DNA from: a virus
Length of the DNA: 64,000 nucleotides
Direction: 5' to 3' (one strand)
Virus record (IMG/VR): IMGVR_UViG_3300042868_003731
Span: 1-64,000 of that record
Below are positions 13,216 through 43,819 of the stretch, one piece after another. The notes below the pieces were generated by a model. It did no database searches, was not told where the DNA came from, and worked only from the letters and a program-made list of their open reading frames with translations. The first letter of the stretch is position 1. The number at the start of each line of letters is the position of its first letter. A program made the position numbers and the translations under genes.

Positions 13216-13524
13216 TTACCACTTAACTTTATCGGCCCAATAAGCAGCCGACATTTTTCCCTTAGCGATATTCTTACCGTGACGAGCTTTGAAAGACTTT
13301 CTCTTCATCTTCATTCTTTCGGATTCGCCTTCCTTAGGATCACCCGCAGTCTCGGCTCCTTGCTGTCCAAAGCGGATCGTCTTTACTTGATCGCCGGACT
13401 TTGCAACGACTATGTGACTCTTTTCTGGATGACTAGGAGTCGCCTTTGGCTTATTGAAACCGGCAACTCCTGCTCTCTCGATACGAGGATCCTTTTCTTC
13501 GAGAAACTGCTTAAACGTCTTCAT
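13216..13524 (-). CDS. Capsid-targeted basic protein
   Basis: 102 residues. It starts MKTFKQFLEE, nearly the T4 internal-protein capsid targeting sequence. The C-terminus holds a conserved block, SFKARHGKNIAKGKMSAAYW followed by ADKVKW, found in small phage and bacterial proteins of unknown function. The N-terminal tag is predicted to be removed by the prohead protease. Coupled to the next upstream gene by a 4-bp overlap. Confidence 0.7.
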   Translation of the reverse strand: MKTFKQFLEEKDPRIERAGVAGFNKPKATPSHPEKSHIVVAKSGDQVKTIRFGQQGAETAGDPKEGESERMKMKRKSFKARHGKNIAKGKMSAAYWADKVKW

Positions 13525-13814
13525 TTCATTAACCTTTGGATGTTTTCGATTGCTTTTTTACCATGAGGATGATGAGGATTGATACTTACTACATCACCAT
13601 TCATCAGATCTGATATACTTGCTGCCTTGCCTAAACCGTCGATAGCTTTGTGCATAGGATCGTTCTTATCATATGTAACTTCATAGTTCTTTTTACCGCG
13701 AACCTCAACCCAGCCTCTTTGATTGGTATCACGCAACTTTAATACGTCAATATCTTTATCACGGACATATTGAACAAAATATGCTTCTGAGATGTATTGA
13801 CTAAAACGAATCAT
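13521..13814 (-). CDS. Capsid-targeted small protein
   Basis: 97 residues beginning MIRFSQYISEAYF, which fits the MxxFxxYIxE targeting pattern. The rest is a compact alpha/beta protein with no known motif. It overlaps both neighbours by 1-4 bp, as in a coupled late operon of internal proteins. Confidence 0.65.
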   Translation of the reverse strand: MIRFSQYISEAYFVQYVRDKDIDVLKLRDTNQRGWVEVRGKKNYEVTYDKNDPMHKAIDGLGKAASISDLMNGDVVSINPHHPHGKKAIENIQRLMK

Positions 13815-14093: not shown

Positions 14094-14891
14094 TTACTTA
14101 CCTGTCTTTTCTGCGTGATGAGCTTTTGCTTTTTCCATTGAGTCAAACTCTTTGTAGTACTTGCGATCTGGTGAGTGAACTGCATAGGTCGCTTTCTTAG
14201 GAAACTTATTGTAGACCTTGGTGATGCGAAGATCTGAAGCTTCATCAAGTTTGATTTCTTCTCTGGCTACTAACTTGCGATACTTTTCTCCTGCCCTCAC
14301 AGCACCGGCGGTTCTCTTATCGTATCTTTTCTTATGAGTAGCAAAATCTTTTCCACCAGCGGAAACTCTCATATGACTTCTAGCTTTTGACGCGTCTATG
14401 TTAGCTTTACTTGCATAAGAAGAAAGCGTGTTCGGTGAAAGCTCATCAAGCTCTTCGACAGATTCCTTTGTAGCAAGAACTTTAGCTCTACCAGTTTGTT
14501 TAGCGAATGCTAGGTCACGACCAAACTTGCGCTTACGATACTTGTCAGAACCATCGTCACCAGATGGTTGATCCGCAAATGCCTTCTGACGATACACATC
14601 TAGCTTCTTATCGGATACTTCATCTAGTTGAACTTCTTCGTTCTTCTTATCCCAAGGAGCCTTTTTTAAAGAAACTGGTTTCTTTTCATCATTTGCTTTT
14701 GCAGCTGCATATGCCTTTCTATTCCCCATTGGGGTTGTTTTATCAGTAAAATCAGTATGAACATATGCTTCGTCAACATCAGCTTCTTCTGGAACACAAT
14801 TAGGAACTTTACGTCCATTCTTTTCTTTGATGCCAACCTGCTTGTATCCAGTCCAGCATGCTTCTTTTACAAACTTCTTAAAAGATTTCAT
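14094..14891 (-). CDS. Capsid-targeted protein with internal LDE repeats
   Basis: 265 residues. The order is: capsid tag MKSFKKFVKE; the block CWTGYKQVGIKEKNGRKVPN followed by CVPE, common in T4-like marine phages; then three segments introduced by VQLDEVS, EELDELS and IKLDEAS. The layout is a shorter version of the 711-residue polyprotein and again suggests cutting by the prohead protease. Highly basic. Function after ejection unknown. Confidence 0.7.
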   Translation of the reverse strand: MKSFKKFVKEACWTGYKQVGIKEKNGRKVPNCVPEEADVDEAYVHTDFTDKTTPMGNRKAYAAAKANDEKKPVSLKKAPWDKKNEEVQLDEVSDKKLDVYRQKAFADQPSGDDGSDKYRKRKFGRDLAFAKQTGRAKVLATKESVEELDELSPNTLSSYASKANIDASKARSHMRVSAGGKDFATHKKRYDKRTAGAVRAGEKYRKLVAREEIKLDEASDLRITKVYNKFPKKATYAVHSPDRKYYKEFDSMEKAKAHHAEKTGK

Positions 14892-14900
14892 TTTATCCTC

Positions 14901-17369
14901 TTAAAACTTATTGGCTGGATCGTCGTTATTGACGGCAGCTGCGTTGTAATGGCGAACTTTATATAGTGTACCGTCGTCGTCTCTTACTCTTAGCCAAGAA
15001 ATGTCTCCGCCTACTACAGTACCCTTACGTAGTTGACCGTCGAACATATCCATCGAGTGTTTCGTAAAACGAACTCTATCGCCTCTCTTGAATGTGCCAA
15101 ACGATCCTGCGAGCATAAACTCTTTAAGGGATTTCTCTCCGGGCGTATCTTTCTTATAAGTCTTGACTAGCTTATCGGTCCCATCCTCACGATTATGAGG
15201 GTTCGGATCACCTTCTTGAATATCTCGAGATAGATTCTTGCTTGAAGATTTATCTCTTTGCTTTGCAGCATCAAGCATACGATCGTGCCTTCTTGCATCA
15301 GCCATCTTTTCTTGAGAGATCTTCATCTTCATCTTTGCTTGTTCTACGCCTTCGTCAACAGATTCAAAAGCGTTTCCGATCTTACCTGTTTTGACTTCTC
15401 CAGAATACTTCTTTTGCATTTGACGAGTAAGGTTCTTCTTCTCTGTACCAGTGATTTCGTCTGGTGTAGTCTTATCAAACTTATCCACGTCGCCATCAAC
15501 ATCTAAGTCGATTGCTTTACTTCCATGCATCATCATATGCTTTGGAGTTAGACCAACACCTAGCTTGTGCTTTAGAGCCTTTGGTATCTTAACTGCTTTA
15601 TCAGGGTCCTTTATGTGGACAAAAGGATGAACTGCTGTTGGCGATACTGCTTCGCTTCTTACTTTAGCAGCAAGATCTGAGTCTGCCTTACCCCAAGTAC
15701 CCTTGCCTTTTGTGGCAAACGAGTTAACTCTTGCGAGACCCCACTGAGTTGGAGTCGTACCTGGACGGTGTCCAGTTCTCCAAGCAGCTACACCACGATC
15801 GAACACCTTCTTAAGTATTCCGTATGATATTCCGCTCTTTTCGGCTTTATTCTTGAGAGCTTCTTCTGGATTATTTTCCATAAGAACATCGTACTCTTCA
15901 GACATGACAAAGTTATCAACATCTTCCATGAGACCGAGTATTTCAAACGAAAAATCTTCGTGGCTCTCGTTAATCTGTTTCTTAAAGATCTTAAATCTTT
16001 TATCAAACTTAACAGAACCATTCTTTTCTAGTGCCATATGCGGTCTCTTACGAAACTTAGTATCTGCCTGTGAAGCTTCGTTAAGAGACTCGCCAAACAT
16101 CTGTTTAAATTTTGTTGTGTGAACCGATGGCTTCGTCTTAGCACCTTTATCACCAGGCGCTGGCTTATATGATGATTGCTCATCGTCGCTCTTTTTAGAA
16201 TACTTTGCGAAGTGTCTAGCACGATCATCCTTTACACTTGATTTAACGCCAGCATAGTATCCCTTAGGCTGCGAACCCGGCATATGTGCCACGTCTTTGT
16301 CCTGCGGTTTAACGGTTCTTGATTCTAAGAAAGTTTCGAACGCAGTATCTAAAGATTCTTGTTTAGGCGCAAGGACATTCTTTAGTCTTTCTTTTTCTGC
16401 GGCACGAACTTTAGGAAGAAGCTTTGCTGCAATACGACCAATGACTGCCTTAGGTACTTTTGCAAGTCTTGCGTCTAGATTGATCTTTTCGGCAGGAGAC
16501 ATTTCCGAATACTTCTTGTTCTTCATAAGGCGATCACGAATAACTTCTAAAGCTCGCTTTCTTGCTCTCTTAAGAAGGTTTTCTTTTGGCGCCATCTTTC
16601 TCTTAGCTCTCTCACGAGCAGCCTTTATCTTTGTCTTATAACGTTTCATTATAAGACCACGTTTACGTCTTTGAGCAAGAGTAAGAGGTGCTGCTTCTAA
16701 AACTACTTCTTCAGTGCTTTCTGTCATGTTCATTCCGTTTCTAACCATGTCATACACTTTCTTAGCTGACGATTTTAACTTTTTTGGAAGACCGTTCTTA
16801 AAAGCTTCAAGGTCCTTCTTAGCTGCAAGAGATCTCATCTTTGATGCTGACATACCAGAAACATCGTCAGAATCCGGATCTCTTTCTCCGGCAGATACTA
16901 CTGATATATTCTCAAAATTGTATTCTTTTCCGTTATACTTATTCATAAGAGTCTCAAATTCATTGACTCGATCCGAACCGACAACGATTACGAGTTCCGA
17001 ATATTTTCCTGAGAGCTCTTTGGCTACTTCTATGAGTGTTTTTGATGTAGACTTTTTAACGATCTTGCCAAATGCAGATTGACCGAGAGATATCTTCTGA
17101 TTGTACGATAGCGGGTTCTTTTTAGGATCTTGTGTATGAGACATATAGATCGCAGGTTCGCCCTTACGCTTAATCGCTTCAGACATGACGGTGTTGACTA
17201 ACTTTTCATGACCGGTTGTAATTGGATTAAAACGACCAAAACTAACGACAGCCACACCTCTTGCAGCTTCGTTCATAGTTGGCTCTGTTTCTATGTATTT
17301 TGTTGGGTCAAATTCTTTAAAGCTTTTTTGCTTCTTTTTCTTTGGATCAATCTTTTTATTGTCGTCCAT
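14901..17369 (-). CDS. Large virion protein with N-terminal nucleotidyltransferase domain
   Basis: 822 residues. After a tag-like KSFKEF and a PTMNEAARG site, residues about 38-215 match a cytidylyltransferase/NMN-adenylyltransferase fold: VVSFGRFNPITTGHEKLV carries the T/HxGH nucleotide-binding motif. The remaining 600 residues are basic, low in recognisable domains, with an EF-hand-like DLDVDGDVDKFD near residue 635. Large adenylyltransferase-fused proteins occur in other marine T4-like phages. A late promoter lies at 17397-17404. Confidence 0.75.
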   Translation of the reverse strand: MDDNKKIDPKKKKQKSFKEFDPTKYIETEPTMNEAARGVAVVSFGRFNPITTGHEKLVNTVMSEAIKRKGEPAIYMSHTQDPKKNPLSYNQKISLGQSAFGKIVKKSTSKTLIEVAKELSGKYSELVIVVGSDRVNEFETLMNKYNGKEYNFENISVVSAGERDPDSDDVSGMSASKMRSLAAKKDLEAFKNGLPKKLKSSAKKVYDMVRNGMNMTESTEEVVLEAAPLTLAQRRKRGLIMKRYKTKIKAARERAKRKMAPKENLLKRARKRALEVIRDRLMKNKKYSEMSPAEKINLDARLAKVPKAVIGRIAAKLLPKVRAAEKERLKNVLAPKQESLDTAFETFLESRTVKPQDKDVAHMPGSQPKGYYAGVKSSVKDDRARHFAKYSKKSDDEQSSYKPAPGDKGAKTKPSVHTTKFKQMFGESLNEASQADTKFRKRPHMALEKNGSVKFDKRFKIFKKQINESHEDFSFEILGLMEDVDNFVMSEEYDVLMENNPEEALKNKAEKSGISYGILKKVFDRGVAAWRTGHRPGTTPTQWGLARVNSFATKGKGTWGKADSDLAAKVRSEAVSPTAVHPFVHIKDPDKAVKIPKALKHKLGVGLTPKHMMMHGSKAIDLDVDGDVDKFDKTTPDEITGTEKKNLTRQMQKKYSGEVKTGKIGNAFESVDEGVEQAKMKMKISQEKMADARRHDRMLDAAKQRDKSSSKNLSRDIQEGDPNPHNREDGTDKLVKTYKKDTPGEKSLKEFMLAGSFGTFKRGDRVRFTKHSMDMFDGQLRKGTVVGGDISWLRVRDDDGTLYKVRHYNAAAVNNDDPANKF

Positions 17370-17407: not shown

Positions 17408-17968
17408 TCAGTCTCTTAAAGTAAAATTATCCTTTGAGAAGAAGTTCTTTGCGCAGTATTCCTTCTCTGTTGGATAGTCGTGAGGGCACGTCTTTTCTCT
17501 CTTCATTTCAGGATCTGTAAACGTTGCAGTCTCTTTCCAATCAAAACCATACACATCTACGTGCTTTGGGTTACAAGTTGATAAGTAGTCTAGAAAAATT
17601 AGACCCGTTGTTGGGTTACTGTATTTACCAGAATGCTTCTTTAACTCTTTATACAGATTTTCCGGATAAACAAAGTCGACTGCATGTATGTTACTTGGTG
17701 TTCTTCCCTGATGGCCAGCATGCATCTTTTTAATATGTTTAGGTATCTTATTAAAGAAAGACTTATACTCAGCAGCATTCCAAAAGACCCAGACGTTGGT
17801 TTTCGTTCCGTGGCTCTTACTTACCTCTTGACGCGTGTATAACATCGCTGCTTTATTGATGCGCACAACAACATCGTGTGCATCAATCTCTTCGCCGTAA
17901 CTCTTACCAAAGAGTGCCATCGAGTTGCCTATCACGGCAACCGTTTTACTTTTAAACCATTCTTTCAT
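17408..17968 (-). CDS. GT29-like (sialyltransferase-family) glycosyltransferase, copy 1
   Basis: 186 residues. Sialylmotif-like elements are readable: KTVAVIGNSMALFGKSYGEE with IDAHDVVVRIN (motif L), NPTTGLIFLDYL (motif S) and HDYPTEKEYC (the late His...Glu motif). GT29 enzymes transfer sialic acid or Kdo-type sugars from CMP donors. It is the last gene of a 10-gene coupled glycan cluster and has two paralogues in it. Confidence 0.75.
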   Translation of the reverse strand: MKEWFKSKTVAVIGNSMALFGKSYGEEIDAHDVVVRINKAAMLYTRQEVSKSHGTKTNVWVFWNAAEYKSFFNKIPKHIKKMHAGHQGRTPSNIHAVDFVYPENLYKELKKHSGKYSNPTTGLIFLDYLSTCNPKHVDVYGFDWKETATFTDPEMKREKTCPHDYPTEKEYCAKNFFSKDNFTLRD

Positions 17969-23478: not shown

Positions 23479-24377
23479 ATCTTACCTACGTCTAAATATT
23501 TTGATACTTCTTTCCACAGGAGGCCATCTTTTATATCTTGAATACTGTAATGAGACATTGCTATCTTTTGGATCCAAGTTTCTCTATCTATTATATATGG
23601 ACTTTCTAACATTGACATGTCATAATTTCCAACATCTGCCACCGGGCTCTTTTTCCAATCCGGGTCCATGATAAACACCGGAACGCCTTCAATCGCGCTA
23701 ACGGCTCCAGGAGAACTGTTATATGTAATGGAACACCATGCGTTTTTTAAATCTTCTAAAATGCTTTTATTTCTCGATATGGTTACTCTACTTTTTTCTA
23801 AGTTACTAATGTATCCATTTACTAAATGATTATCGGTTGGGTGTAATCGAATGACAATATCTCTATCGGAATATTCCCTTATCTTTTTTATCGTTGAAGT
23901 GCACCACTTTAATCCGTCTAAACCACACATAGTCCAACCGGAACTCTTTTGCATAAGTATGAGAATATGATCTCCGGTTTTTCTCCAAGGTTTAAGTTTG
24001 CATTCGGTTACCTTACTTATATTAGTCCATCTGTTTGGATCTATCTCTTTATCAAAATAATAACCAGTGTTTGCAAATATGCCGTTCATGCTGTATCTAA
24101 AATAAATGTTTTTACTTAGATAATTAAAGATGTTCCCATCAACAGTTAAAATGTGGCCGCAATGGTTTTTCTGTTTTTCTATGACGTATCTTCTAAACAT
24201 ATTATGAGGTGTATCGGATCCTGGCTTTGGCCATCCCTGTATGATAGCAAGATTGCATTTATTCCAAACCGAGTTTTTCACGACAGAGCAATTTGGAAAT
24301 GTTTTTTGAATTGCCTCAAATCTTTCATCTTTTCTATCAGACTTTAGAGTTTTGTAAAATATAGAAGATGTAATCAC
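23475..24377 (-). CDS. KpsS/capsule-synthesis-like glycosyltransferase, second copy
   Basis: 300 residues. ILILMQKSSGWTM, IVIRLHPTD and ITYNSSPGAVSAIEGVPVFI form the conserved core of capsule polysaccharide synthesis proteins. AT-rich compared with the structural genes, as are its neighbours, which fits a glycan cluster acquired by transfer. Coupled to the GT29-like gene upstream. Confidence 0.68.
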   Translation of the reverse strand: MITSSIFYKTLKSDRKDERFEAIQKTFPNCSVVKNSVWNKCNLAIIQGWPKPGSDTPHNMFRRYVIEKQKNHCGHILTVDGNIFNYLSKNIYFRYSMNGIFANTGYYFDKEIDPNRWTNISKVTECKLKPWRKTGDHILILMQKSSGWTMCGLDGLKWCTSTIKKIREYSDRDIVIRLHPTDNHLVNGYISNLEKSRVTISRNKSILEDLKNAWCSITYNSSPGAVSAIEGVPVFIMDPDWKKSPVADVGNYDMSMLESPYIIDRETWIQKIAMSHYSIQDIKDGLLWKEVSKYLDVGKI

Positions 24378-24919
24378 GATGAACCTCTAAGTAAAAATGT
24401 ATCATCGTTAAATATGTTATTCAAACAGTAATTTCGTTCTGTTCCAAAGTCATGAGCGATACATTTTCTTCTCTCGTGCCAGGAATAAGATGCTTTCCAA
24501 TCGAAGCCATATGCAAAAACTTTTTGTGGGTTCTGCTTCTTTATATAGTATAAGACTCTTAGACCAGTCGAAGATTTCTTTGGCAAGTTACCGTCTAACT
24601 GCTTTCTATCCTCATCAGAGAACACCAGATCTGCCATCTCTATATGCAATGGGGATACGTCTACAGTATCCATCTGCATCTTACGTACGTGTCTTGTATG
24701 AGGTTTATTAAAGTATGCTTTGTTTTGGTTAATGTTCTGCATACACCAGATATCAAGACGCGATCCCATCTGAGATGGAAACTCGGTGAAGCGATATCCA
24801 CCACGGTTGATACGAACCACTACTTCTGCTCGATCTATTTCTTTACCGTACTTTTGTTGTAAGAGCGAAGCCGCATTACCAACAACCGCAACAGTTTTTC
24901 CTGCGAACCATTCTTTCAT
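24374..24919 (-). CDS. GT29-like glycosyltransferase, copy 3
   Basis: 181 residues. KTVAVVGNAASLLQQKYGKE, SSTGLRVLYYI and HDFGTERNYC give the three sialylmotif-like elements. It opens the glycan cluster. The three copies differ throughout, so they probably have different acceptors rather than being recent duplicates. Confidence 0.73.
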   Translation of the reverse strand: MKEWFAGKTVAVVGNAASLLQQKYGKEIDRAEVVVRINRGGYRFTEFPSQMGSRLDIWCMQNINQNKAYFNKPHTRHVRKMQMDTVDVSPLHIEMADLVFSDEDRKQLDGNLPKKSSTGLRVLYYIKKQNPQKVFAYGFDWKASYSWHERRKCIAHDFGTERNYCLNNIFNDDTFLLRGSS

Positions 24920-25857: not shown

Positions 25858-27660
25858 TTAAACGCTGATCTCAACATAGACATCACCGGTTGCTGTGCCA
25901 AATGTGCGATAGATAAACACACCAGTTCTACCATCATTGACGTTAGGAGCAGTGTTATTCCCAGTGTGATTGCCAGCGTTAACGCCTGTTGTCACAGCAC
26001 GATTGCTACCAGTATCATTCTTAACCAATACGGTCACAGTCTTGCCTGCTGTAATATTAGAGAACGCAATGACCGCAGTAGTAGTAAGTTCAACTAACAC
26101 ATTATGATCTGTAGCAAAGTCAATAGTCAGCGTGCCTGCCGCACCTAGTGTTCCAGCATCACGAGATTGACCGTGATAGTTTCTAGCAGTAACAAGATTT
26201 GTGACGGTTAAGCTACCCAATGTGCCCACACTAGTCAAACTACTTGTAACTACATTGCTTGCTAATGTTGTGCCAGTAACGTTTGCAGCAGCAACTGAAC
26301 CGGCAGAGCCTGACACATTACCTGTTAATACCTTACCTGATTCAAGTGTAATACCTGTACTGTCCACAGTGGCAATTTTAGCTAATGTCGTGGTGTTTAT
26401 CGGAGTAGCCCACAATTCAATATAACCGCCTTGATTAGTTAAGGTTTGGTTACCTAACGCCTTATAGACAATACGTTGATTGGCTGTTCCTGGTATTATC
26501 GTGCCATTATGTGCGGTACCGCTGAGACGCATAATTTCTTCATCGGCCAACACCGCGGATGGTGATGCTGCGGTATTATTATATCTTCTCGAAACAAACG
26601 CAGAAAATGCATTTTGTGAGTCATTGTATATTCTACTAGGTACGCCAGGTGACCCGGCAATACCTGTAACGTGTAACATAACTCCAGTGTTAACTGGCGA
26701 TTGGAAAACTCCGCCCGAACCACCAATAATTTCAACAGCGCCTTCACTACTATTAGCGTTCGGCACAAGTATACGAACTTTGCCGGATTCGTCTACTCTA
26801 AAAACGGCGCCATTTGCATCCGGGTCGATTGGATCATATGTATCTGGTGTATGCACATGAAAATTGCCGATAACATTAATAACACCATTGGCTGATGATA
26901 CTATATCAATGTTTTGACCAAGATTCACTGAACTTAATGTAGCAGCACCATTAGCTGGAACTGTTGCTTGGAAGTCACCGAAACTAAAATCGAGCCCTTC
27001 AGAGCTAATGATAATTTGGCCTTGGTTATTGGTAGTGACACCGGGTCCTAATCTAACACCGCCTATTATATCATTAGTTGCCGCGTTCAGTTGAAGTCTA
27101 TCGGATCCATCTATCGTAAATGCAGTACCTATTTTTATCCCGCCAAGATCACTTGATGAAGCAACAGAAAGAGAAACTTCATTACTGCCATTTAAGTAAA
27201 GACCATCGCCAGTTTCTATCGTATCAAAGATGAATTTTTTGGTAGCTTGATCGTAAGTTAGATACTTGTTTGTGCCCACAGTTGCTGAATTAATATCATC
27301 TAATCTAGAAAAGTTAACTTCACCGCCACCACCGATTGACGACATTTGTTGTTGAATGCGCTGTAAGAACAAACCGTAATGATCGTTCATTTCTTTAAAT
27401 GTTACAAATTTTTCGCTAGGTTCTCTTCGAAGAGGATCGTTCCATCTTTGAGTTTCTATATTTTCAGCCACATTACGTACAATAGGTTCGGATTTACGTG
27501 GACTATTTAAATAGTGCATCGTCTTTTTTACAACGTCTTCTTCCTCAATGGCCGTAGGCGCAATTATAATTTCTTCTTTAAGATTTGGCTCTTGAGACTT
27601 CTTCTGTGCAGCTGCTGCTTCAAGAAGCATTTTCTTCAACTCGTTAATTGCATTACTCAT
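25858..27660 (-). CDS. Virion structural (tail-fibre-like) protein
   Basis: 600 residues from the ATG at 27660 (TAATG overlap with the upstream stop; an in-frame ATG lies 12 bp earlier). A helical N-terminal 100 residues leads into Gly/Ser/Thr/Asn-rich beta repeats such as GGIKIGTAFTIDGSDRLQLN and ASNVVTSSLTSVGTLGSLTV, typical of phage fibre proteins. Codon use and composition are less AT-biased than in the neighbours. Probably a fibre or baseplate-linked structural protein. Confidence 0.7.
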   Translation of the reverse strand: MSNAINELKKMLLEAAAAQKKSQEPNLKEEIIIAPTAIEEEDVVKKTMHYLNSPRKSEPIVRNVAENIETQRWNDPLRREPSEKFVTFKEMNDHYGLFLQRIQQQMSSIGGGGEVNFSRLDDINSATVGTNKYLTYDQATKKFIFDTIETGDGLYLNGSNEVSLSVASSSDLGGIKIGTAFTIDGSDRLQLNAATNDIIGGVRLGPGVTTNNQGQIIISSEGLDFSFGDFQATVPANGAATLSSVNLGQNIDIVSSANGVINVIGNFHVHTPDTYDPIDPDANGAVFRVDESGKVRILVPNANSSEGAVEIIGGSGGVFQSPVNTGVMLHVTGIAGSPGVPSRIYNDSQNAFSAFVSRRYNNTAASPSAVLADEEIMRLSGTAHNGTIIPGTANQRIVYKALGNQTLTNQGGYIELWATPINTTTLAKIATVDSTGITLESGKVLTGNVSGSAGSVAAANVTGTTLASNVVTSSLTSVGTLGSLTVTNLVTARNYHGQSRDAGTLGAAGTLTIDFATDHNVLVELTTTAVIAFSNITAGKTVTVLVKNDTGSNRAVTTGVNAGNHTGNNTAPNVNDGRTGVFIYRTFGTATGDVYVEISV

Positions 27661-28892
27661 TATCGTTGCCATCCCTTTATGTATTCCGCGGAGAAGTTTG
27701 CTTTACTAAATTCGAGTCGGTCTACAAGTTTAACTGCGTTCTTACCCATGTGGTCGATTGCGACAAAACCTTCCTGCTCGGTTACCTTATACCCGTCAGC
27801 TGTCTTGAGGAAGGTACCAATTCTCTTTGCTCTATCGAGCTTTCGTATGATTAATAGTTTTGCGTCTATGATATGATTGTATAGATCAAACATCGCTACG
27901 ATCTGAGATCTCTGAGTCTTGTCAAAGTAAGACATTACTTCGTCTTTTTTAGCCATCACAGCCTTCTTGCCAGCGTCTGTCTTTTTCTTTTCAATCTCGC
28001 CGTCGTAGTATCGGTTCAGATATACGATTAGGTCGTTGACGAACACCGCAGAGTTGCGAACTCTTTCTCCCTGACGGATCTTGGAGTTTACGAAGGTCTT
28101 TACTCTCATAAGTCTCTCTTCGTTCTCAGAGATGCCGTTAAGTGTCTCCCTCTTAATCGAGTTGAAGAGCTTTCCTGCCTTGGATAGTATCTCAGTGACG
28201 GCTTCGGTCTCGTTTGAAGTAAAGTTAGCTGTTCCGGACACGTCTTTATAGACGGCGTCGACGGACCAGACAGAATTTACTTTCTTAAGGCCGCTTGCGA
28301 TCTCTTCTCCAAAACTCGCTGACATTGTTTCAAAAGAGTCTCCTCTGTATCGAGTGTGCCATACCACTCCGATCTTAGATCTGAGGATTTCCTTAGCAAG
28401 CTTGCTGTTTTCAGGTACCGCGTAAACAATCGTATTAGGATGAAAAGTAATATGCGGTTCATCATTAATGTTAACTTCTTTGATATCTTCTCTCGCATAT
28501 AGAAAGTCACCTTGTATCACACCCTTGATGCCAAGCTTTGGAAGCTCAGCAAGAGCAAGTTTCAATTTTGTATTCAAATCGCCTGAGGTATCGGCATCAA
28601 TGTCTTCGTCTGTTTTATAGACCTTTGGATTCTTGTTGAAGATACCCTTCTTAGCGACGAAGAACTTACGGTCAGAAGGGTCTATTCCAGCGAATACGGC
28701 AGGTGCGCCATCCCACTTAACGGTTACGTTGATAGGAGCTTTAGATCTTCCAGCAAGCATGTCTCGAAGCGAGCGGAGGAAGTTGATTGACGAACGAGTT
28801 CCATCAACACCGAGGTTTAGAATGGCATCTTCAAGGTGCTCCATATGGAGATTCTTTTCCTCGGCGAGGTATTCTCTAAAAGTTATCATCAT
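27660..28892 (-). CDS. Capsid-targeted ligase-like nucleotidyltransferase
   Basis: 410 residues. It starts MMITFREYLAEEK, a capsid targeting sequence with a LAE cleavage-like site. VTVKWDGAPAVFAG is a KxDG motif as in the covalent nucleotidyltransferase core of DNA/RNA ligases; GVIQGDFLYA could be a following ligase motif. Related proteins occur in T4-like marine phages. It is coupled to a HAD phosphatase and a PD-(D/E)xK protein, also tagged. Ligase activity is inferred, not proven. Confidence 0.7.
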   Translation of the reverse strand: MMITFREYLAEEKNLHMEHLEDAILNLGVDGTRSSINFLRSLRDMLAGRSKAPINVTVKWDGAPAVFAGIDPSDRKFFVAKKGIFNKNPKVYKTDEDIDADTSGDLNTKLKLALAELPKLGIKGVIQGDFLYAREDIKEVNINDEPHITFHPNTIVYAVPENSKLAKEILRSKIGVVWHTRYRGDSFETMSASFGEEIASGLKKVNSVWSVDAVYKDVSGTANFTSNETEAVTEILSKAGKLFNSIKRETLNGISENEERLMRVKTFVNSKIRQGERVRNSAVFVNDLIVYLNRYYDGEIEKKKTDAGKKAVMAKKDEVMSYFDKTQRSQIVAMFDLYNHIIDAKLLIIRKLDRAKRIGTFLKTADGYKVTEQEGFVAIDHMGKNAVKLVDRLEFSKANFSAEYIKGWQR

Positions 28893-29497
28893 ACTTTCCT
28901 TATTGATCCGTCGTGCTTTACGTGATATGCCTCGAAGGAAATACCTGGATACTGTTTTGCGAGAGCCTTAAACATTGTAATGTTCGACATGGCATCGTCA
29001 AAGAAACGAACTCTCTCGTACTTACCGCCACGAAGATACTTATGGAAGACGAACCTCTTGTTCTTTGCAGATGATCCAAGTTTTAGATTTCCAGCTCTCT
29101 CAACATATACGTTATCAATATCTATACCATAACGACGGAATGTGTCAAGGAACTTTTTCTTATCGTCGAAATCGGATCGAGCAGTCACGATAATGACTCT
29201 AGACCCTGCAGCCGTGGCGTTCTTAATGATCGCCTTTGCTTTTTCGATCATCTTCATGATGGGGACTGAAGTCTTCTGAAAGACTTCTGCGGACTCAAAC
29301 TCCCCGAAGTTATAGGACTCGCCATCTTTCAATTTATAAGTATTAAATTCTTGATTATCGAGTGAACGAACTAACTTGCCGTCCTTCATCACTCGTATCT
29401 TAGCAGAAGTGCGAAAGAGAGTCTCATCGATATCAAAGATCGTTAGACCTTTACCGCGAGTCTGTTCGGTTATGAAAGATTTAAATGAAAGCATCAT
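28889..29497 (-). CDS. Capsid-targeted HAD-superfamily phosphatase
   Basis: 202 residues. After the tag MMLSFKSFITE comes LTIFDIDETLF, the HAD nucleophile motif DxDxT. VIIVTARSDF supplies the motif II Thr, and RVRFFDDAMSN the acidic motif IV. HAD domains of this size act as nucleotide or polynucleotide 3'-phosphatases (compare T4 Pnk). Coupled to the ligase-like gene downstream. Confidence 0.78.
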   Translation of the reverse strand: MMLSFKSFITEQTRGKGLTIFDIDETLFRTSAKIRVMKDGKLVRSLDNQEFNTYKLKDGESYNFGEFESAEVFQKTSVPIMKMIEKAKAIIKNATAAGSRVIIVTARSDFDDKKKFLDTFRRYGIDIDNVYVERAGNLKLGSSAKNKRFVFHKYLRGGKYERVRFFDDAMSNITMFKALAKQYPGISFEAYHVKHDGSIRKV

Positions 29498-30282
29498 TAA
29501 ACTCCAAAAAGATCTTTTAATGTTTTTTCCATCACATCGAAATCTATGTTAACTGTTTTTCCCATCGTAGGTGCAATGTTAAACGGAGATCTTCGTGCTC
29601 TTGGTATTGAAAAACTCATTTCAAATGTAAATTGATATGTTCCGCCACCTTTTGCCTGCACTCTTGCCCTATAACCAGCGTTTGCGGCATTACCAAATGA
29701 AGGAACACCCTTTAATCCAAGCGGATTGTTATTTCCTAATAAAAAGAACCCATCAGTACCAACATTTACATAATAAGTCTTTTTCTTATTGTAGTATTCT
29801 TCTATCTTTGTTGCAGGTATAACACCTTTAATTTCTGAAAAACGAGAAAGCTCTTTTGAATATATTTCTCTTTTGTTTAGTCCTTCTATCTCAGACAAAA
29901 CGTTTCTATTCTTCGTAAACTTATATGGTTCTTGCTTCCAAGAAGATTTGATTGTGTCAAGTATCCCAACTTGTTTAGCGAGTTCTATGACAAATAGTTT
30001 TTCGTCATTGGTTTCATTCTCACTACCTATCGACCAATTGCCATCGTTCCATTTCATGACTAACGAACCTGCAGATGCCGCAGTGATCTTAAGTTCACAC
30101 CCGGTTGCTGTCTGGCCAGGCCCAGGTCTTTTAATCATAAGATCTGGTATATCAGATCCAGCGCCAGCAGGAACAAAACTTTTTGGTACGATGTCAAATG
30201 GTTTTAACGCTTCAACAGCATTTCTTTCGTATTGAAAACCTTGTTGAGCCACTTCAATAATATACCTTCTAAAAGATTGCAT
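29497..30282 (-). CDS. Capsid-targeted PD-(D/E)xK-like nuclease candidate
   Basis: 261 residues beginning MQSFRRYIIEVAQQ (capsid tag). SDIPDLMIKRPG followed 8 residues later by GCELKIT reads as PD...ExK, the active-site motif of many nucleases. The C-terminal half is unassigned. It is the first gene of the three-gene tagged cassette and has its own late promoter at 30305-30312. Nuclease activity is inferred from the motif alone. Confidence 0.6.
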   Translation of the reverse strand: MQSFRRYIIEVAQQGFQYERNAVEALKPFDIVPKSFVPAGAGSDIPDLMIKRPGPGQTATGCELKITAASAGSLVMKWNDGNWSIGSENETNDEKLFVIELAKQVGILDTIKSSWKQEPYKFTKNRNVLSEIEGLNKREIYSKELSRFSEIKGVIPATKIEEYYNKKKTYYVNVGTDGFFLLGNNNPLGLKGVPSFGNAANAGYRARVQAKGGGTYQFTFEMSFSIPRARRSPFNIAPTMGKTVNIDFDVMEKTLKDLFGV

Positions 30283-30304: not shown

Positions 30305-30312
30305 TATTTATA
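30305..30312 (-). promoter_or_regulatory. T4-type late promoter (TATAAATA)
   Basis: Exact TATAAATA on the minus strand, 23 bp upstream of the tagged nuclease candidate and directly after a terminator. Confidence 0.8.
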
Positions 30313-37012: not shown

Positions 37013-39058
37013 TCATTTTGAAGTTGCTATGAATACTCCGTTCCAATCTTTTGGAAGTTTTTGAGTTTTCATATATTCGCAACGCTCGATCCACATATCA
37101 TAATACTTATCCATTTTTCCATCGAAACAGTGTCTAAGGCTTTGGCAAAGTTCAATAGCTTCGCTAAACTTTTGTCTTAGATACAGTTCATGCATCGCAT
37201 CGTGAATTTTTTTGTTGCTAATATAACTCGGCTGAACATCATCTAGTACCGTGTAAATTGAAATACCTACAGTTTTACCTTTTACTGCTAGATCATCTAT
37301 CTTAAGGAAAAAGAAGTCATCTTTACAATGTTCAACGGTTGCACCACCAACTAATAGCAAGCAGCCGTATTCTTTACATTTGCTTTCAATGCGAGCAGCG
37401 GTTGATACGCTGTCACCTAACACGTCATAGCTGTGGCGTTTAGTTGAGCCCATTTCCCCAATATAACCAAGACCGGTATTAATGCCGGCACCCATGCCTA
37501 CGGGTGGGCGACCTTGAGGTATGATAACATCTTTATTAAATTTTTCTACGGCCTTAAGCATGTCCAATCCACACTGGACAGCGGTTTTAGGATGATGCGG
37601 ATCGTCGATAGGAGCGTTATGTATGTGCATTGACGCGTCACCAATGTACTTAATAATCATACCACTAGAGTCAAGAACTGGCTGTGTAATTGCATCCATG
37701 TATCCATTCATTACCTTTGTAAGACCAGCAACATCATCACCAAAACTTTCGCCTAAAGGAGTAAAGCCACGAAGATCAGAGAATAGAATACTAACTTCTT
37801 TCTTAACGCCTTTTTTAATTAAATCTGGATTCTTCTGTAGGATCTCAACAACCTCAGGTGAAGCATATCCTCCGAACTGTTTCTTAATCGCTTGCTTCTG
37901 TAGGAATTCGTCTATGAACTTTACAGCATAACGAATTAGACCAACGAGCAGTAATCCGGCTGGAATTATAACGCCGTCGATAAGCATCTTATATTCAGCG
38001 AACGCATACATACTTGATGCAATGCTTGCTACGACAACTACCGCAAAGAATGCTAGACCGACGTAGGTCCATCTCGCTAATGCTATCAGAAGTAAACCTG
38101 CGATACTGAATGCGATGAGTTCCATACCTGGTGCCCAAGCCGGTCTCTCAATATTCGTACCGTTGAATACAGTTCCCAATAGAGCAGCTTGAAGATCGTG
38201 CGGCCATACTTGACCAGCTGCAGTCGCTATCGGGTTATTGATACCTGCAGCCGTAGGAGCTACAAACACCACCGCACCACCGAAGTCTTCAGGAAGATCT
38301 GTCGCACTTACTGATATTGACTTTTGACTCCAGTCGATCCATACTCTCGCAAGTTCGTCCGTTGAGATAGGACCAAACTGTGGAACTCTTAACTTATCAA
38401 CTCCAAGTGGCGAAAGACGTATCTGAAAGCTTGGATCACCAGCAAGAACTCGAAGAACCTCGAGTGTTAAGTTTGGATACAAAACACCTTCAGACTCAAT
38501 AACGAGTGGAACACGTCTTGTGACACCATCGGGTTCAGGAAGTGTATTAACGATACCGGATCCAATAGCAAACTTCTCAAGCTCAGGAATGTTTGCAATG
38601 ACGCCAGGATACGAAAGAATGAGATCCTGATACTCAGAGTTAATGATTGCTGCACCAGGATTGATCGGTTCGTTCACGGTTCGATCACCGCCGACTGTAT
38701 TAAGAACGACTGGGTTCTTTTGTAGAGTCTCAGTCAACTTATAGTCTTCACCGAAGCGATCCTTCTCGCTCATCAGGACGCCGAACACGACGAGTCCTGC
38801 ATTCCTAGCATATAGATCTTCGATTAATGCTGCATATTCTCCTCGAGGCCATGGCCACTGACCCTTTTCTTCGATCGCAGCTTCATCAATATTCACAGTG
38901 TAGATATTGTTTTGAACCGGTTCTTGATTCACTATCAATTGGTCAAAATATCTAAGCTTTATGCTTTCTAAGAAACCGGGGTTACTTACAAACAGCATAC
39001 ACAATAATCCGAGTACTAATAGACTCCAAATAGGTGATAACAATATCTTCTTCATCAT
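37013..39058 (-). CDS. CHASE2-domain adenylate cyclase (class III)
   Basis: 681 residues. N-terminal membrane helix (about 10-24), extracytoplasmic CHASE2 sensor (about 30-300, WPWPRGEYAALIEDLYARNA), three membrane helices (about 312-378), then a class III nucleotide cyclase domain. Metal Asp428 (ILFSDLRGFT) and Asp474 (KYIGDAS) are present, as are Lys470 and Asp545 for adenine recognition and Arg556. The transition-state Asn is Ser552 (VSTAARIE). It probably makes cAMP in response to a periplasmic signal. It lies beside FecR and curli genes; how it affects them is unknown. Confidence 0.88.
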   Translation of the reverse strand: MMKKILLSPIWSLLVLGLLCMLFVSNPGFLESIKLRYFDQLIVNQEPVQNNIYTVNIDEAAIEEKGQWPWPRGEYAALIEDLYARNAGLVVFGVLMSEKDRFGEDYKLTETLQKNPVVLNTVGGDRTVNEPINPGAAIINSEYQDLILSYPGVIANIPELEKFAIGSGIVNTLPEPDGVTRRVPLVIESEGVLYPNLTLEVLRVLAGDPSFQIRLSPLGVDKLRVPQFGPISTDELARVWIDWSQKSISVSATDLPEDFGGAVVFVAPTAAGINNPIATAAGQVWPHDLQAALLGTVFNGTNIERPAWAPGMELIAFSIAGLLLIALARWTYVGLAFFAVVVVASIASSMYAFAEYKMLIDGVIIPAGLLLVGLIRYAVKFIDEFLQKQAIKKQFGGYASPEVVEILQKNPDLIKKGVKKEVSILFSDLRGFTPLGESFGDDVAGLTKVMNGYMDAITQPVLDSSGMIIKYIGDASMHIHNAPIDDPHHPKTAVQCGLDMLKAVEKFNKDVIIPQGRPPVGMGAGINTGLGYIGEMGSTKRHSYDVLGDSVSTAARIESKCKEYGCLLLVGGATVEHCKDDFFFLKIDDLAVKGKTVGISIYTVLDDVQPSYISNKKIHDAMHELYLRQKFSEAIELCQSLRHCFDGKMDKYYDMWIERCEYMKTQKLPKDWNGVFIATSK

Positions 39059-39659: not shown

Positions 39660-41342
39660 CTACTGATTCACTGTTAAGTTACACCCCGCAGAAACATTAC
39701 ATACTCCGGATACAGTACTTCCATCGCTCATACTATGTGGCAAACTGTATGTCTTAGAAGTTGATCCGGACTGGTTTAGAATAAAATTCCATGCTCCGCC
39801 ACCGTTCTCTAACTGAACAGTCGCAGCATGACTGCCGCTTCCATCCTGAATTACGCTAGCATTATGATCGTTCCCAATTAACGTTAGATTTAAATAATGG
39901 TTCCCAGTTCCTTTTTGGTTCACGGACAGATCATTGCTGTTTCCGTTAACGTTTAAGAACATGTTTTTTCCAGTTTCTCTTTGCTGTAGTATTAGGCTGT
40001 TTCCATTGCCGATGATGTCAGCCTCTAGATAGTGTCTAGATGATGTAGTTGTTGTCTGTAAAATATCTGTGCTATTGTTATCACCATCGATATTTAAGAT
40101 AGCATAATGGCTTCCACCAATCTGTTGGATCTGAACATCATTGTCGTTTCCAACAATATTTACATTTGCATTATGACCGTTCGTCAAAGCAAGGTTGGCC
40201 GCTCTTCTCATCGCCTGTGAAGGATTGATACCTGACGAGTAAACCGGGGTTGGAGCAGATCCTGGGTTTGATACAGATCCTGAACCAGTCGCCGTTGATG
40301 TTGTTGTGTTGCCTGAATTGTAGTAGAATGTAATTTCTGCAATCTGCATACTGTCACAGTTCAAACCACAGCCGTCTCCGGATTTAGTCGTGGGAAAGAA
40401 TATGTAATAGTAGACATACGCATTGCTGTTTGTGACTGGAATTTTAGGACTGGTCCAGAATCTATCGTTACTAAGTGATAAAGCACCTTCTTGAATCAAC
40501 GTCCAGTTTACACCGTCGTTACTTGCGTATAGCTTATAACTCGTCGGGTCTCTTCCTGAGAAGTCATTCGCAGTGGTAAGTGTAAACTCGTTTACCACTC
40601 GCCCAGCGTTTAGTTTAATAGTAACACCAGCGTTTTTCTTATCAAAGTTTAGATACTTTGTGTTTGGATTATTATCAAACGCTTGCGAAGCACCTTCACC
40701 CGATGGGCTGTTATTACTCGTAGGATAGTGATTGGTTATGTTAACATTCGAGCTGTTATTATAGATTGGAGTTGCGACAGCAGGTGGTGGCGCAGTCTGT
40801 CCCGCAGCCAACGGCGTTGAGCTTGGTGGAACATACGCTTGAAGTTGACTATTCGTTGGGTTATCTTGAGTGACAGACCACGAACCGCTTTGACCAAGAC
40901 TATATCCTTGACCGGTAGTGATGAGAGTTCCCCACATACCGTTGCCGTTATAGAAGATCGCTCCGTTGGCTAATGCTCGAAACGAGCCTGTGTTGTTAAT
41001 TATTTTGTATCTTGTGCCGTCGCTATTGAACACGGCCATACCGTAGGTGCCAGGATTGGTTGTACTATTAAAGAACCCAATGTATCTGCCATTACTGTTT
41101 GCGTCTGCAGTTTGTGCAGCTGTCCATCTAGCAGCCGAATTAGTCTGAGTAGCATAGTTCACGCTCGCAAAGATATAGTTAAATCCGCTCGCATGCAGTG
41201 TTCCGCCGGAAATATACCACTGCACGTCGAATATCTGCGCAGTGCTGAGCTTTAAGTCAGTGATAGCCGCAGCGGCAATACTAACGAACATAAGGTAAAC
41301 GAGTATCGCGCTACTGAGTCTGGATAGTAGTGATAGAAACAT
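39660..41342 (-). CDS. Secreted protein with F5/8C-like domain and curlin-type repeats
   Basis: 560 residues from the ATG at 41342 (GGAGG 5 bp upstream). Signal peptide (to about residue 29, AAAA), an N-terminal beta region, an F5/8 type C (discoidin)-like sugar-binding domain (about 210-345, KLYASNDGVNWTLIQEG), then curlin-like repeats (about 390-540) with spaced QQ/GN motifs such as GNDNDVQIQQIGG and GDNNSTDILQ. Probably an amyloid-forming surface adhesin exported by the CsgG pore encoded nearby. Overlaps the FecR gene by 32 bp. Confidence 0.7.
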   Translation of the reverse strand: MFLSLLSRLSSAILVYLMFVSIAAAAITDLKLSTAQIFDVQWYISGGTLHASGFNYIFASVNYATQTNSAARWTAAQTADANSNGRYIGFFNSTTNPGTYGMAVFNSDGTRYKIINNTGSFRALANGAIFYNGNGMWGTLITTGQGYSLGQSGSWSVTQDNPTNSQLQAYVPPSSTPLAAGQTAPPPAVATPIYNNSSNVNITNHYPTSNNSPSGEGASQAFDNNPNTKYLNFDKKNAGVTIKLNAGRVVNEFTLTTANDFSGRDPTSYKLYASNDGVNWTLIQEGALSLSNDRFWTSPKIPVTNSNAYVYYYIFFPTTKSGDGCGLNCDSMQIAEITFYYNSGNTTTSTATGSGSVSNPGSAPTPVYSSGINPSQAMRRAANLALTNGHNANVNIVGNDNDVQIQQIGGSHYAILNIDGDNNSTDILQTTTTSSRHYLEADIIGNGNSLILQQRETGKNMFLNVNGNSNDLSVNQKGTGNHYLNLTLIGNDHNASVIQDGSGSHAATVQLENGGGAWNFILNQSGSTSKTYSLPHSMSDGSTVSGVCNVSAGCNLTVNQ

Positions 41343-42408
41343 TCGTTCCTCCATCGTTTATTTGTACAACCGCAAATACTCCATCCTGAGTTACGTTATA
41401 CGTTCCGTTCGTATCTAAACTTGTTGTCAGCATTGATATATGCGGTGAACGATCAGAATCTAATAACATGAACTCTTCATTCACGACTGCGCGTATCCAT
41501 GGAAAGTTCTTAATGTTAGGTAGTACTTCGCTTTCTTCCTCTTCTAGCATACTCTCAAGAGATGCCACGTTGATTTCTAGAAGATTATCCAAATAAGTGT
41601 TATTCACTCTGTTTACGTCAAGCGAGTTGGTCGTTAATTCTTCATCTTCAGCAAGCAAGTCTTCAGAGAGTTCTTCATTCTCTAAGAGATCAACATCAAG
41701 TTCGGTTCGTATCTCTTCCTCTTCTTCATCGTTAGAAAATCCGCCTGGAAATTCTGATGGAGGAACTATGATAAGATTGTTATTGATGTTTGATTGATCT
41801 AAAAGAAGTTTACGAGGATCCGCCGGAGATAGCCCGCTGTGAGACACCATAGTTGCTTGATAAGATTCATTTAGCATCACGGTTCCGCCATCAGTACTCA
41901 CTGAGATGGATCCGACTGGGCATTCGTCTTCATTGAGAGTTTCGTCTGGGCAGCTAGGTAGGAGAATGATTAGACTGCGACCAAGCTCGTCAACCGTCAT
42001 AGAGAAGTCTGTTCCTCTGACCGTAATGCTTGCCGTTGGCGTGCGGATGTCGACGTTCTCTCTGCTAGTTTTGGCTAGCAGACCAGATGTCATCTGAACT
42101 GTTCCAAGAGCAACCTCCATCGACATCTTACCAGCGCTCGTGTTTGGATCGTACACAAAATCATCAATCACTAGCTCACTCTGCTCTGTAATTTCAACTC
42201 GCGTGCCATCTTCAAATGTTAGGCCGAGCCGAGTATTAGCAGTAATTAATTGATCTAACATTTCAACACCAAAGCCCATCTCAACAGTGAGTTTATCACT
42301 GTCTCTTCTGGCTTCAGCTGCATTTCCTTTGAAATCAGTCACGGTCCCAACTTCGGCAATCGCGAAGTTGGGAATGATCATCATTACGATGAATAAGATT
42401 CTCCACAT
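41311..42408 (-). CDS. FecR-domain protein
   Basis: 365 residues from the ATG at 42408, 2 bp after the curlin stop. Signal peptide (to IAE, about residue 19), FecR-like core (about 20-170: GNAAEARRDSDKLTVEMG, TRLGLTFEDGTRVEI, TASITVRGTDFSM), then an acidic linker and a C-terminal NVTQDGVFAVVQINDGGTN segment of curlin flavour. FecR domains often accompany CHASE2 cyclases in bacteria. Its part in amyloid assembly or sensing is inferred. Confidence 0.78.
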   Translation of the reverse strand: MWRILFIVMMIIPNFAIAEVGTVTDFKGNAAEARRDSDKLTVEMGFGVEMLDQLITANTRLGLTFEDGTRVEITEQSELVIDDFVYDPNTSAGKMSMEVALGTVQMTSGLLAKTSRENVDIRTPTASITVRGTDFSMTVDELGRSLIILLPSCPDETLNEDECPVGSISVSTDGGTVMLNESYQATMVSHSGLSPADPRKLLLDQSNINNNLIIVPPSEFPGGFSNDEEEEEIRTELDVDLLENEELSEDLLAEDEELTTNSLDVNRVNNTYLDNLLEINVASLESMLEEEESEVLPNIKNFPWIRAVVNEEFMLLDSDRSPHISMLTTSLDTNGTYNVTQDGVFAVVQINDGGTNVSITTIQTQ

Positions 42409-42409
42409 A

Positions 42410-43027
42410 TTAGTGCTGAACGATATCCACGGTGTTAGTATCTCCATCTATGTCAACATTTACGATATGTCCTGTAGATGTAGTCTGAGTAAGATTAATC
42501 ACGTTGAAATCACTTGGTGTTGTCTGGCCGACGTTGAACACGTTGGTTGCATCAGGAGCATTCAATGCAAAGTTGATTTCGTTATTATTACCAGTAAGAT
42601 TGAGTGTAGTATCTGTGAGGTTGACTTGAATACCGCTGCAGTTACCGTTAATGTAATCTTTACATAGAGTGATCACGTTATCGTTACCTATGACGGCTGC
42701 GACGAAATTATTGTCGACTCCGCCACTGATATTTGAAAGCACTTCGTTTAGATCACCTTCAACACGATATTCATAGTTCGTGTCGTTAGCACTTACTTGA
42801 ATAAAGATGTCAGCAATGTTTCCGTCACCATCTTGAACAATCTCGACGTTGATGTCGTTACCGTTCACGATCATAGGAGCCGCATCGGTGTTGATTCTGT
42901 TGTTTCCATTTTGCTGAAGTACGTTTACGTTAGTACTATTTCCAGCCTGGTCGATATAAACTTCGCTTGCGAATGATGGAACCGCGATTCCTATCATAAG
43001 AGCAGAAGTTAATAATAGGTTTTTCAT
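42410..43027 (-). CDS. Curlin-like amyloid subunit (CsgA/CsgB type)
   Basis: 205 residues with a signal peptide (to SFASEVY). Curlin repeat signatures (spaced N/Q/G): SEVYIDQAGNSTNVNVLQQN, GNDINVEIVQDGDGN, TDTTLNLTGNNNEI, NVDIDGDTNTVDIVQH. Likely secreted unfolded through the CsgG pore and polymerised outside. It precedes the FecR gene. Confidence 0.78.
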   Translation of the reverse strand: MKNLLLTSALMIGIAVPSFASEVYIDQAGNSTNVNVLQQNGNNRINTDAAPMIVNGNDINVEIVQDGDGNIADIFIQVSANDTNYEYRVEGDLNEVLSNISGGVDNNFVAAVIGNDNVITLCKDYINGNCSGIQVNLTDTTLNLTGNNNEINFALNAPDATNVFNVGQTTPSDFNVINLTQTTSTGHIVNVDIDGDTNTVDIVQH

Positions 43028-43045
43028 TTGAGTTATTTCCTTTTG

Positions 43046-43819
43046 TTATTGTTTGAAAGCCCAGTAGCCGTTCTCGGCACCTTCTTTGATCATTTCAACA
43101 ACTGCGGCCTGAATCGCGAGTCTTACTGCATGGTTCACAGGTTCGTTCTGTGAATTACCAATTTCAAGTTCGACGTTCTCAGTACCTGCCTCTATAAACT
43201 TGAAAACACCTAAATTTGTACTTGTACTTAATACGGTTTTTGATACTGCTGTACTTGTTAAAACTTCACCAGATTTTACAGAAACAGCTCGCATTGAGAC
43301 AGTGATCACATCTTCAGTGTAACGAGTGCTAGGTCCTATGCCAAGGTATCTTGCACCTGCGCCACCGGTTAATGTATTTGAATCGTAGCCAACGATTGCT
43401 CCCTCAACGATTACTCCTGCGAATAGCATAGGTGATAAAGGAGTTTCGTCACCAACTTCTTCTCTCGTCTGACGTATAATCTGACGTTCGCGTGCTAGGT
43501 TCTCTAACCCTACACGTTCTACAACTCGGAACCAAGTTCCGTTTCCAGCATCACGCAATGCTTTGATCACGTATTGTTCTGCACCCTGTGTAACTGCAGT
43601 CGAGATGTTAGCAAGTTTTTCGCTCGGTAGTCTCTGACCTGTCTTATCTTCGAACGAATACACCGCAACGACCATCGCACCCTGTGCTGGTGGCGGAAGA
43701 TTAATGAAATCTTTCTCTGTCACGACGGCCTTTGGTGATTCAATTGGTATTCGATTCACTGTGGTAGAGCAGCCAGCAACGAGACCTGCGAATAAGAGTG
43801 ATAATACTATCTTTTTCAT
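43046..43819 (-). CDS. csgG: Curli secretion pore lipoprotein CsgG
   Basis: 257 residues. Lipoprotein signal LVAGC (Cys17), then the CsgG family core: VVAVYSFEDKTGQRLPSEKL, GTWFRVVERVGLENLARERQ, RYLGIGPSTRYTEDVITVSM. CsgG forms the outer-membrane channel for curli subunits. Adjacent to csgF and curlin genes. The periplasmic partner CsgE was not found. Confidence 0.92.
   Translation of the reverse strand: MKKIVLSLLFAGLVAGCSTTVNRIPIESPKAVVTEKDFINLPPPAQGAMVVAVYSFEDKTGQRLPSEKLANISTAVTQGAEQYVIKALRDAGNGTWFRVVERVGLENLARERQIIRQTREEVGDETPLSPMLFAGVIVEGAIVGYDSNTLTGGAGARYLGIGPSTRYTEDVITVSMRAVSVKSGEVLTSTAVSKTVLSTSTNLGVFKFIEAGTENVELEIGNSQNEPVNHAVRLAIQAAVVEMIKEGAENGYWAFKQ

Follow-up and report, generated by a model that had tools for sequence, protein, structure and literature searches.

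Predicted capsid-targeted nuclease and RNA-ligase-like enzymes in an exchangeable locus of a T4-like phage

The window analysed here is a stretch of 64,000 nucleotides, bases 1-64000 of the 217,966-base IMG/VR virus record IMGVR_UViG_3300042868_003731, and belongs to a marine-type T4-like phage. On its minus strand lies a cassette of three overlapping genes for a predicted PD-(D/E)xK nuclease, a HAD-superfamily hydrolase and a DUF6267 protein that resembles RNA ligases, and all three products begin with a sequence of the form that targets T4 proteins to the capsid (the tag). Our overall reading, to which we give a probability of about 0.68, is that these late-made enzymes are packed into the head through the tag, trimmed and injected, whereupon the nuclease would attack and the ligase would reseal.

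Predicted capsid-targeting N-termini on three coupled genes

In the propeptide of T4 IPIII, residues 4 and 7 direct the protein to the head and its cleavage depends on residues 8 and 10 (PMC9026906). All three cassette proteins start with M..[FY]..[FY][LI].E in exactly this register: the nuclease (29497-30282, minus strand, 261 aa) with MQSFRRYIIE at residues 1-10, the HAD hydrolase (28889-29497, minus strand, 202 aa) with MLSFKSFITE at residues 2-11, and the DUF6267/phrog_455 protein (27660-28892, minus strand, 410 aa) with MITFREYLAE at residues 2-11. The pattern M..[FYL]..[FYL][ILVM].E was found in 8 of the 330 open reading frames (ORFs) of the 218-kb record, where 0.19 would be expected from internal protein positions (binomial 3e-11). 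All eight fall inside the window, and the remaining 231 ORFs, elsewhere in the genome, have none; a looser ninth candidate (MKTLRQIISE, at 176454) adjoins the portal gene. As a control, the pattern found only ipIII (MKTYQEFIAE) in a 39-kb stretch of T4 and missed ipI, which has no Glu10. In the predicted models, residues 1-7 of the nuclease and 1-14 of the DUF6267 protein were disordered. Among the gene products of the phage is a prohead protease of the gp21 type, which matched Peptidase_S77 at 1.7e-35 and phrog_207, a head maturation protease, at 1.3e-71. Judged by this N-terminal signal, the tagged proteins would be packaged in the head.

The cassette ORFs overlap by 1 nt (TAATG) and 4 nt (ATGA) and have plausible Shine-Dalgarno sites. 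A T4-type late promoter element, TATAAATA, is located on the minus strand at 30305-30312, 22 nt 5' of the first cassette ATG. Such promoters were predicted by consensus match; the window holds 12 of them and every one is on the minus strand, where 3.4 would be expected over the two strands together, and 0 of 100 shuffles reached 12. The cassette is followed in the window by gp41, uvsX and gp32-like genes, and portal, gp21-, gp22- and gp23-like genes occur at 174.8-181 kb of the record, where the family search confirmed gp21 only.

The original prediction, that three coupled minus-strand genes at these positions follow a late promoter and that all their products have capsid-targeting N-termini, was borne out by the overlaps and the promoter, and by the exact T4 register, its retention in homologues and the encoded prohead protease. 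The extent of the operon needs amendment: a tail-fibre-like gene that is not capsid-tagged (25858-27672, minus strand; match to phrog_28263, tail fiber protein, at 2.7e-6) overlaps the 3' end of the ligase gene, the next late promoter does not occur until 25659, and this fourth gene is probably part of the late operon. Cleavage had been placed after residue 10, which fits the register of the nuclease. The HAD and ligase ORFs open with two Met codons, and since the tag register fits the second, cleavage is predicted there after residue 11 of the annotated ORF.

Predicted folds of the nuclease and the DUF6267 protein

The residues D47, E63 and K65 of the nuclease (PD47...E63xK65) were invariant in an alignment of 28 homologous sequences. 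The AlphaFold model (pLDDT 91.7) had HhaI as its best VIA-align match (Z 9.1, rmsd 5.2, 181 residues aligned), which stood above the unrelated rows and was followed by a SPARDA nuclease and then HinP1I (Z 5.7). A PD-(D/E)xK nuclease of HhaI/HinP1I-like predicted fold is thus well supported. HhaI and HinP1I share this fold and the PD...ExK active site with the phage protein, which differs from them in that neither sequence similarity to them nor a companion methyltransferase was found, and in carrying a head tag. A tblastn search of annotated phages with the nuclease gave no match, and a pattern scan of low sensitivity revealed no bacterial homologue.

The protein encoded at 27660-28892 matched PF19782 (DUF6267) at 8e-112, a family that is annotated in Pfam as of unknown function and on which our literature search returned no papers. 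Ligase motifs I (K59WDG62), III (G128D129), IV (E374G375xV377) and V (K388) were invariant in 63 sequences. All 50 structural neighbours that VIA-align listed for the predicted model (pLDDT 89.2) were RNA or DNA ligases, with RNA ligases on top (Z of 8.9 for NgrRnl, 8.3 for TbREL1, 7.8 for Trl1 and 7.4 for T4 Rnl2). Taken together, model and motifs lend good support to an RNA-ligase-like covalent nucleotidyltransferase. DUF6267 has its predicted nucleotidyltransferase fold in common with NgrRnl, TbREL1 and T4 Rnl2, as well as the ligase motifs I, III, IV and V. Unlike these nick-sealing RNA ligases, it has a helical insertion of ∼130 residues (about 226-355) before motif IV, escapes PF09414 and is found in marine-type T4-like phages.

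A search of 50,697 phage records located DUF6267 in 455, for the most part cyanophages, with its gene adjoining uvsX/gp41 and a cytidylyltransferase-like gene. The latter gene stands next to DUF6267 in several isolates; in the present phage it encodes an untagged protein of 822 aa (14901-17369, minus strand; phrog_3041, 9.8e-94; phrog_455, 1.5e-23). As phrog_455 spans both, the two domains are fused in some phages. A gp30-like ligase (PF01068) accompanies DUF6267 in this phage and in DLP6. C48C1, Melnitz, HTVC008M and S-PM2 gave no match to PF01068, PF09414 or PF01653, and because no other ligase was recognised there, DUF6267 may also serve replication in these four phages.

The HAD hydrolase

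All four HAD motifs (D22xD24xT26, T105, K147 and D167D168) were invariant in 22 homologues. The Pfam matches were generic (acid phosphatase and DUF2608), and the protein matched phrog_415, named 'polynucleotide kinase', at 1.3e-10. When the HAD profile was compared with PDB sequences, no polynucleotide kinase (PNK) chain was matched, and tblastn in annotated phages gave one weak match only. The gene was found without the ligase in 63 loci and occurs mostly apart from it. The best explanation of this distribution and of the motifs is a separate tagged phosphohydrolase that would share the operon here by happenstance.

The tag and the gene order in relatives

Among distinct homologues on viral contigs, the tag form was present in 89 of 95 DUF6267 proteins, 36 of 47 HADs and 14 of 41 nucleases. 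These homologues keep F4, [FY]7, [LI]8 and E10, while positions 2, 3, 5, 6 and 9 vary. Accordingly, the entropy in 58 of 66 DUF6267 proteins, a set chosen by the pattern of the tag form with E or Q allowed at position 10, was 0-1.2 bits at the key positions versus 2.2-2.8 at the others. The DUF6267 proteins of Stenotrophomonas phage DLP6, of C48C1 and of Methylophilales phage Melnitz are tagged. Untagged nucleases begin directly at MAAQQGFQYE, which suggests that the tag is a module that the domain gained or lost. Of 1813 other distinct genes in the neighbourhood of the relatives, 66 likewise had the strict tag, where ∼1 would be expected at the rate of this genome. Four freshwater-type HADs (L154, L040, L048 and L222) begin with (M)IKKRFREFVGSG, in which the aromatic targeting residues are kept and the cleavage Glu is lost; this N-terminus is perhaps a decayed or uncut tag.

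At least 8 families interchange directly upstream of DUF6267, in the slot between gp41 and DUF6267, and their members are often tagged. Most of these families are PD-(D/S)xK-like. SxK is a variant of the PD-(D/E)xK site, of the Cfr10I/NgoMIV type. The motif P..D..SxK was present in 13/13, 6/6, 7/7, 6/8 and 3/4 members of five slot families, compared with 43/550 and 1/68 background proteins. A single ancestor for all slot families was considered and rejected: hhalign supports only the pairs F1-F7 (94%) and F3-F5 (69%), so that a nuclease fold shared by all slot families stands at the level of motifs. Tagged neighbours of the ligase in relatives, which sometimes occupy the slot itself, include HD_4 (SpoT-like), ADP-ribosyltransferase-like (ART-PolyVal, below the Pfam cut-off) and zeta/AAA_33 kinase-like proteins (L033:1997-2563, L209:5456-6004, L101:6606-7175 and L241:4171-5016). 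Since the slot swaps beside the ligase while the HAD gene occurs in 63 ligase-free loci, the conserved unit is a nuclease that varies together with a ligase that stays constant, and the HAD is separate.

With regard to the enzymes, the original prediction of a PD-(D/E)xK nuclease agrees with the HhaI-like predicted fold and the catalytic D, E and K invariant in 28 sequences, the assignment to the HAD superfamily with an intact active site invariant in 22 homologues, and the reading of the KxDG protein as a nucleotidyltransferase of the ligase type with its invariant motifs I, III, IV and V and an RNA-ligase-like predicted fold. Its view of the HAD as an end-healing phosphatase did not gain support from generic family matches, one PHROG match at 1e-10, the lack of a PNK structure among the sequence matches and the mostly ligase-free loci. 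Neither did the idea of one three-gene kit gain support, given that the nuclease slot is interchangeable and the HAD optional and separable. Constant packaging of all three was not supported either, in view of untagged freshwater-type nuclease and HAD copies and of the untagged cyanophage DUF6267 proteins described below.

Further tagged proteins and other genes in the window

Five further proteins in the window, all encoded on the minus strand, fit the tag pattern. They are encoded at 11004-13139 (MKRFKSYINE, 711 aa), 13216-13524 (MKTFKQFLEE, 102 aa; phrog_7595, 7.7e-42), 13521-13814 (MIRFSQYISE, 97 aa), 14094-14891 (MKSFKKFVKE, 265 aa) and 60650-61114 (MQSFKNFLLE, 154 aa). The 102-aa protein weakly matched a minor head/DNA pilot family (phrog_220, 8e-7), and in other phages (L119) the HAD gene has a relative of the 154-aa protein as its neighbour.

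Several other minus-strand genes deserve mention. The gene at 37013-39058 lies beside curli genes and encodes a 681-aa protein that combines a CHASE2 sensor with an adenylate/guanylate cyclase domain, which is unusual in a phage. The curli-type locus itself (39660-43819) encodes CsgG (1.3e-53), a Curlin_rpt/F5_F8 protein, a FecR protein and a curlin-like protein of 205 aa that had no Pfam match. Curli genes have been reported in pelagimyophages and Melnitz (PMC7029224, PMC9004378). An auxiliary metabolic gene at 46226-46993 encodes DAHP synthase of the aromatic amino-acid pathway, and two glycosyltransferase family 29 (sialyltransferase-like) proteins (17408-17968 and 24374-24919) border a group of sugar-related genes at 17.4-24.9 kb.

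Additional searches returned little. A search of phages at the level of near-identical DNA gave no match. HMMER searches of PDB sequences with the nuclease, HAD and ligase profiles gave nothing meaningful, PADLOC gave no match and NCBIfam nothing over its cut-off. A literature search for capsid targeting together with cyanophages returned a T4 review only, and in the literature searched we found no description of an exchangeable nuclease-ligase locus with tagged enzymes.

Discussion

In the scheme that we propose, the nuclease, the HAD and the DUF6267 protein would be synthesised late, and the T4-type propeptide would draw them into the prohead, where the gp21-type protease of the phage would trim them after the Glu of FxxFLxE. 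The enzymes would then be packed among the DNA and ejected with it into the bacterium. There, within the first minutes, the injected nuclease would cut DNA that is not protected like the phage's own, be it the host chromosome, plasmids or rival phages, and the ligase would reseal nucleic acid of the phage itself where it is broken or nicked. That the proteins are present in the virion, are cleaved and ejected and act as enzymes is inferred, as are their substrates and the role in conflict. For the injected enzymes, a conflict role with an attacking nuclease and a guarding ligase is as likely as that of a repair kit.

Packaging of enzymes by such a signal has precedents, as staphylococcal nuclease and EcoRI were packed into T4 heads via the capsid-targeting tag (PMC9026906, PMC3012670), and the T4 internal proteins are injected counter-defence proteins (PMC12373910). 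IPI, IPII and IPIII of T4 share with the present proteins the 10-residue N-terminal tag (F/Y4, F/Y7, I/L8, E10), the gp21-type protease and late expression, and in both cases diverse cargo with only the tag in common is encoded at variable loci (PMC9026906, PMC12373910). The T4 internal proteins are small GmrSD inhibitors, whereas the cargo here consists of predicted enzymes of 200-410 aa that are encoded beside gp41. T4 Alt likewise is an enzyme in the head that is processed by gp21, and relatives of the present phage carry the tagged ADP-ribosyltransferase-like protein of locus L101. Alt, however, is a single host-takeover ADP-ribosyltransferase, while here different enzyme classes occur with a nuclease-ligase pair.

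Several observations weigh against this scheme. Foldseek alone returned no significant structural match for the nuclease or the DUF6267 model, so that fold and motifs must be judged jointly. There was no avoidance of GCGC in the phage genome (observed/expected 1.04), and a motif search revealed no methyltransferase in any of the 88 nuclease loci. Most freshwater-type nucleases have no tag, and neither did 7 of 7 sampled DUF6267 proteins of cyanophages, which suggests that these enzymes function, or used to function, without being packaged as well. Furthermore, the literature searched yielded no virion proteome, be it of the phage itself or of a tagged relative.

Instead of a capsid signal, the N-terminal motif might be a docking peptide of another kind or an amphipathic helix that arose by chance, in line with some tag copies that are displaced by one or two residues. 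We consider this improbable, given the four T4 residues in exact register, the 8 occurrences versus 0.19 expected with none in the other 231 ORFs, the swapping of the tag on and off unrelated domains, and the gp21 that the phage encodes. DUF6267, beside gp43-uvsX-gp41, might also be mainly a replication or repair ligase whose packaging in heterotroph phages is secondary. This would suit C48C1, Melnitz, HTVC008M and S-PM2 with their want of PF01068, PF09414 and PF01653 matches, and the prevalence of the gene near uvsX/gp41 in mostly cyanophage records. It appears rather unlikely for the present phage, which like DLP6 carries a gp30-like ligase as well and has its DUF6267 gene behind a late promoter; moreover, nearly all sampled non-cyanobacterial copies of DUF6267 retain the tag.

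T4 Pnkp and Rnl1 reseal tRNA that has been cut by PrrC. By analogy, an injected ligase and an end-healing HAD could form a repair or counter-defence kit that mends phage DNA or host tRNA after cleavage by bacterial defence nucleases, with the nuclease trimming ends or being incidental. The best matches of the DUF6267 model are indeed nick-sealing or repair RNA ligases, the HAD shows a weak relationship to a PHROG that bears the name polynucleotide kinase, relatives carry a tagged zeta/AAA_33 P-loop kinase near the ligase, and the T4 internal proteins are themselves counter-defence proteins. Still, the ligase has as its lasting partner a protein that is of restriction fold or PD-(D/S)xK-like and no healing enzyme, while the HAD gene occurs mostly in ligase-free loci and its profile matched no PNK structure, which together make this kit an unlikely account of the cassette. 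The T4 pair shares with the cassette a ligase and a HAD from one phage; the cassette differs in having no kinase domain, a HAD that is at most a putative 3'-phosphatase, and predicted delivery in the virion. An ordinary T4 Pnk/Rnl1 kit was rejected, as the cassette holds no kinase and the HAD is separable.

Returning to late-made, injected enzymes, we tentatively suggest that marine-type T4-like phages carry a conserved nuclease-ligase module in which a fast-swapping PD-(D/E/S)xK nuclease slot always stands ahead of DUF6267, a new RNA-ligase-like family. In heterotroph-infecting lineages the module would be tagged and thereby become injected cargo, and the locus might serve as an exchangeable store of effectors (nuclease, HAD, HD hydrolase, ADP-ribosyltransferase and P-loop kinase). 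The internal head proteins of T4 are small inhibitors plus Alt; as judged from its sequence, the present locus would extend such injected head proteins to predicted enzymes in an exchangeable nuclease-ligase locus. If this is true, enzymes that abundant marine phages inject can be read from sequence alone via the tag, which also makes delivery in the virion directly testable. It would give a function to DUF6267, which is 'hypothetical' in 455 deposited phages and may be the missing ligase of cyanophages.

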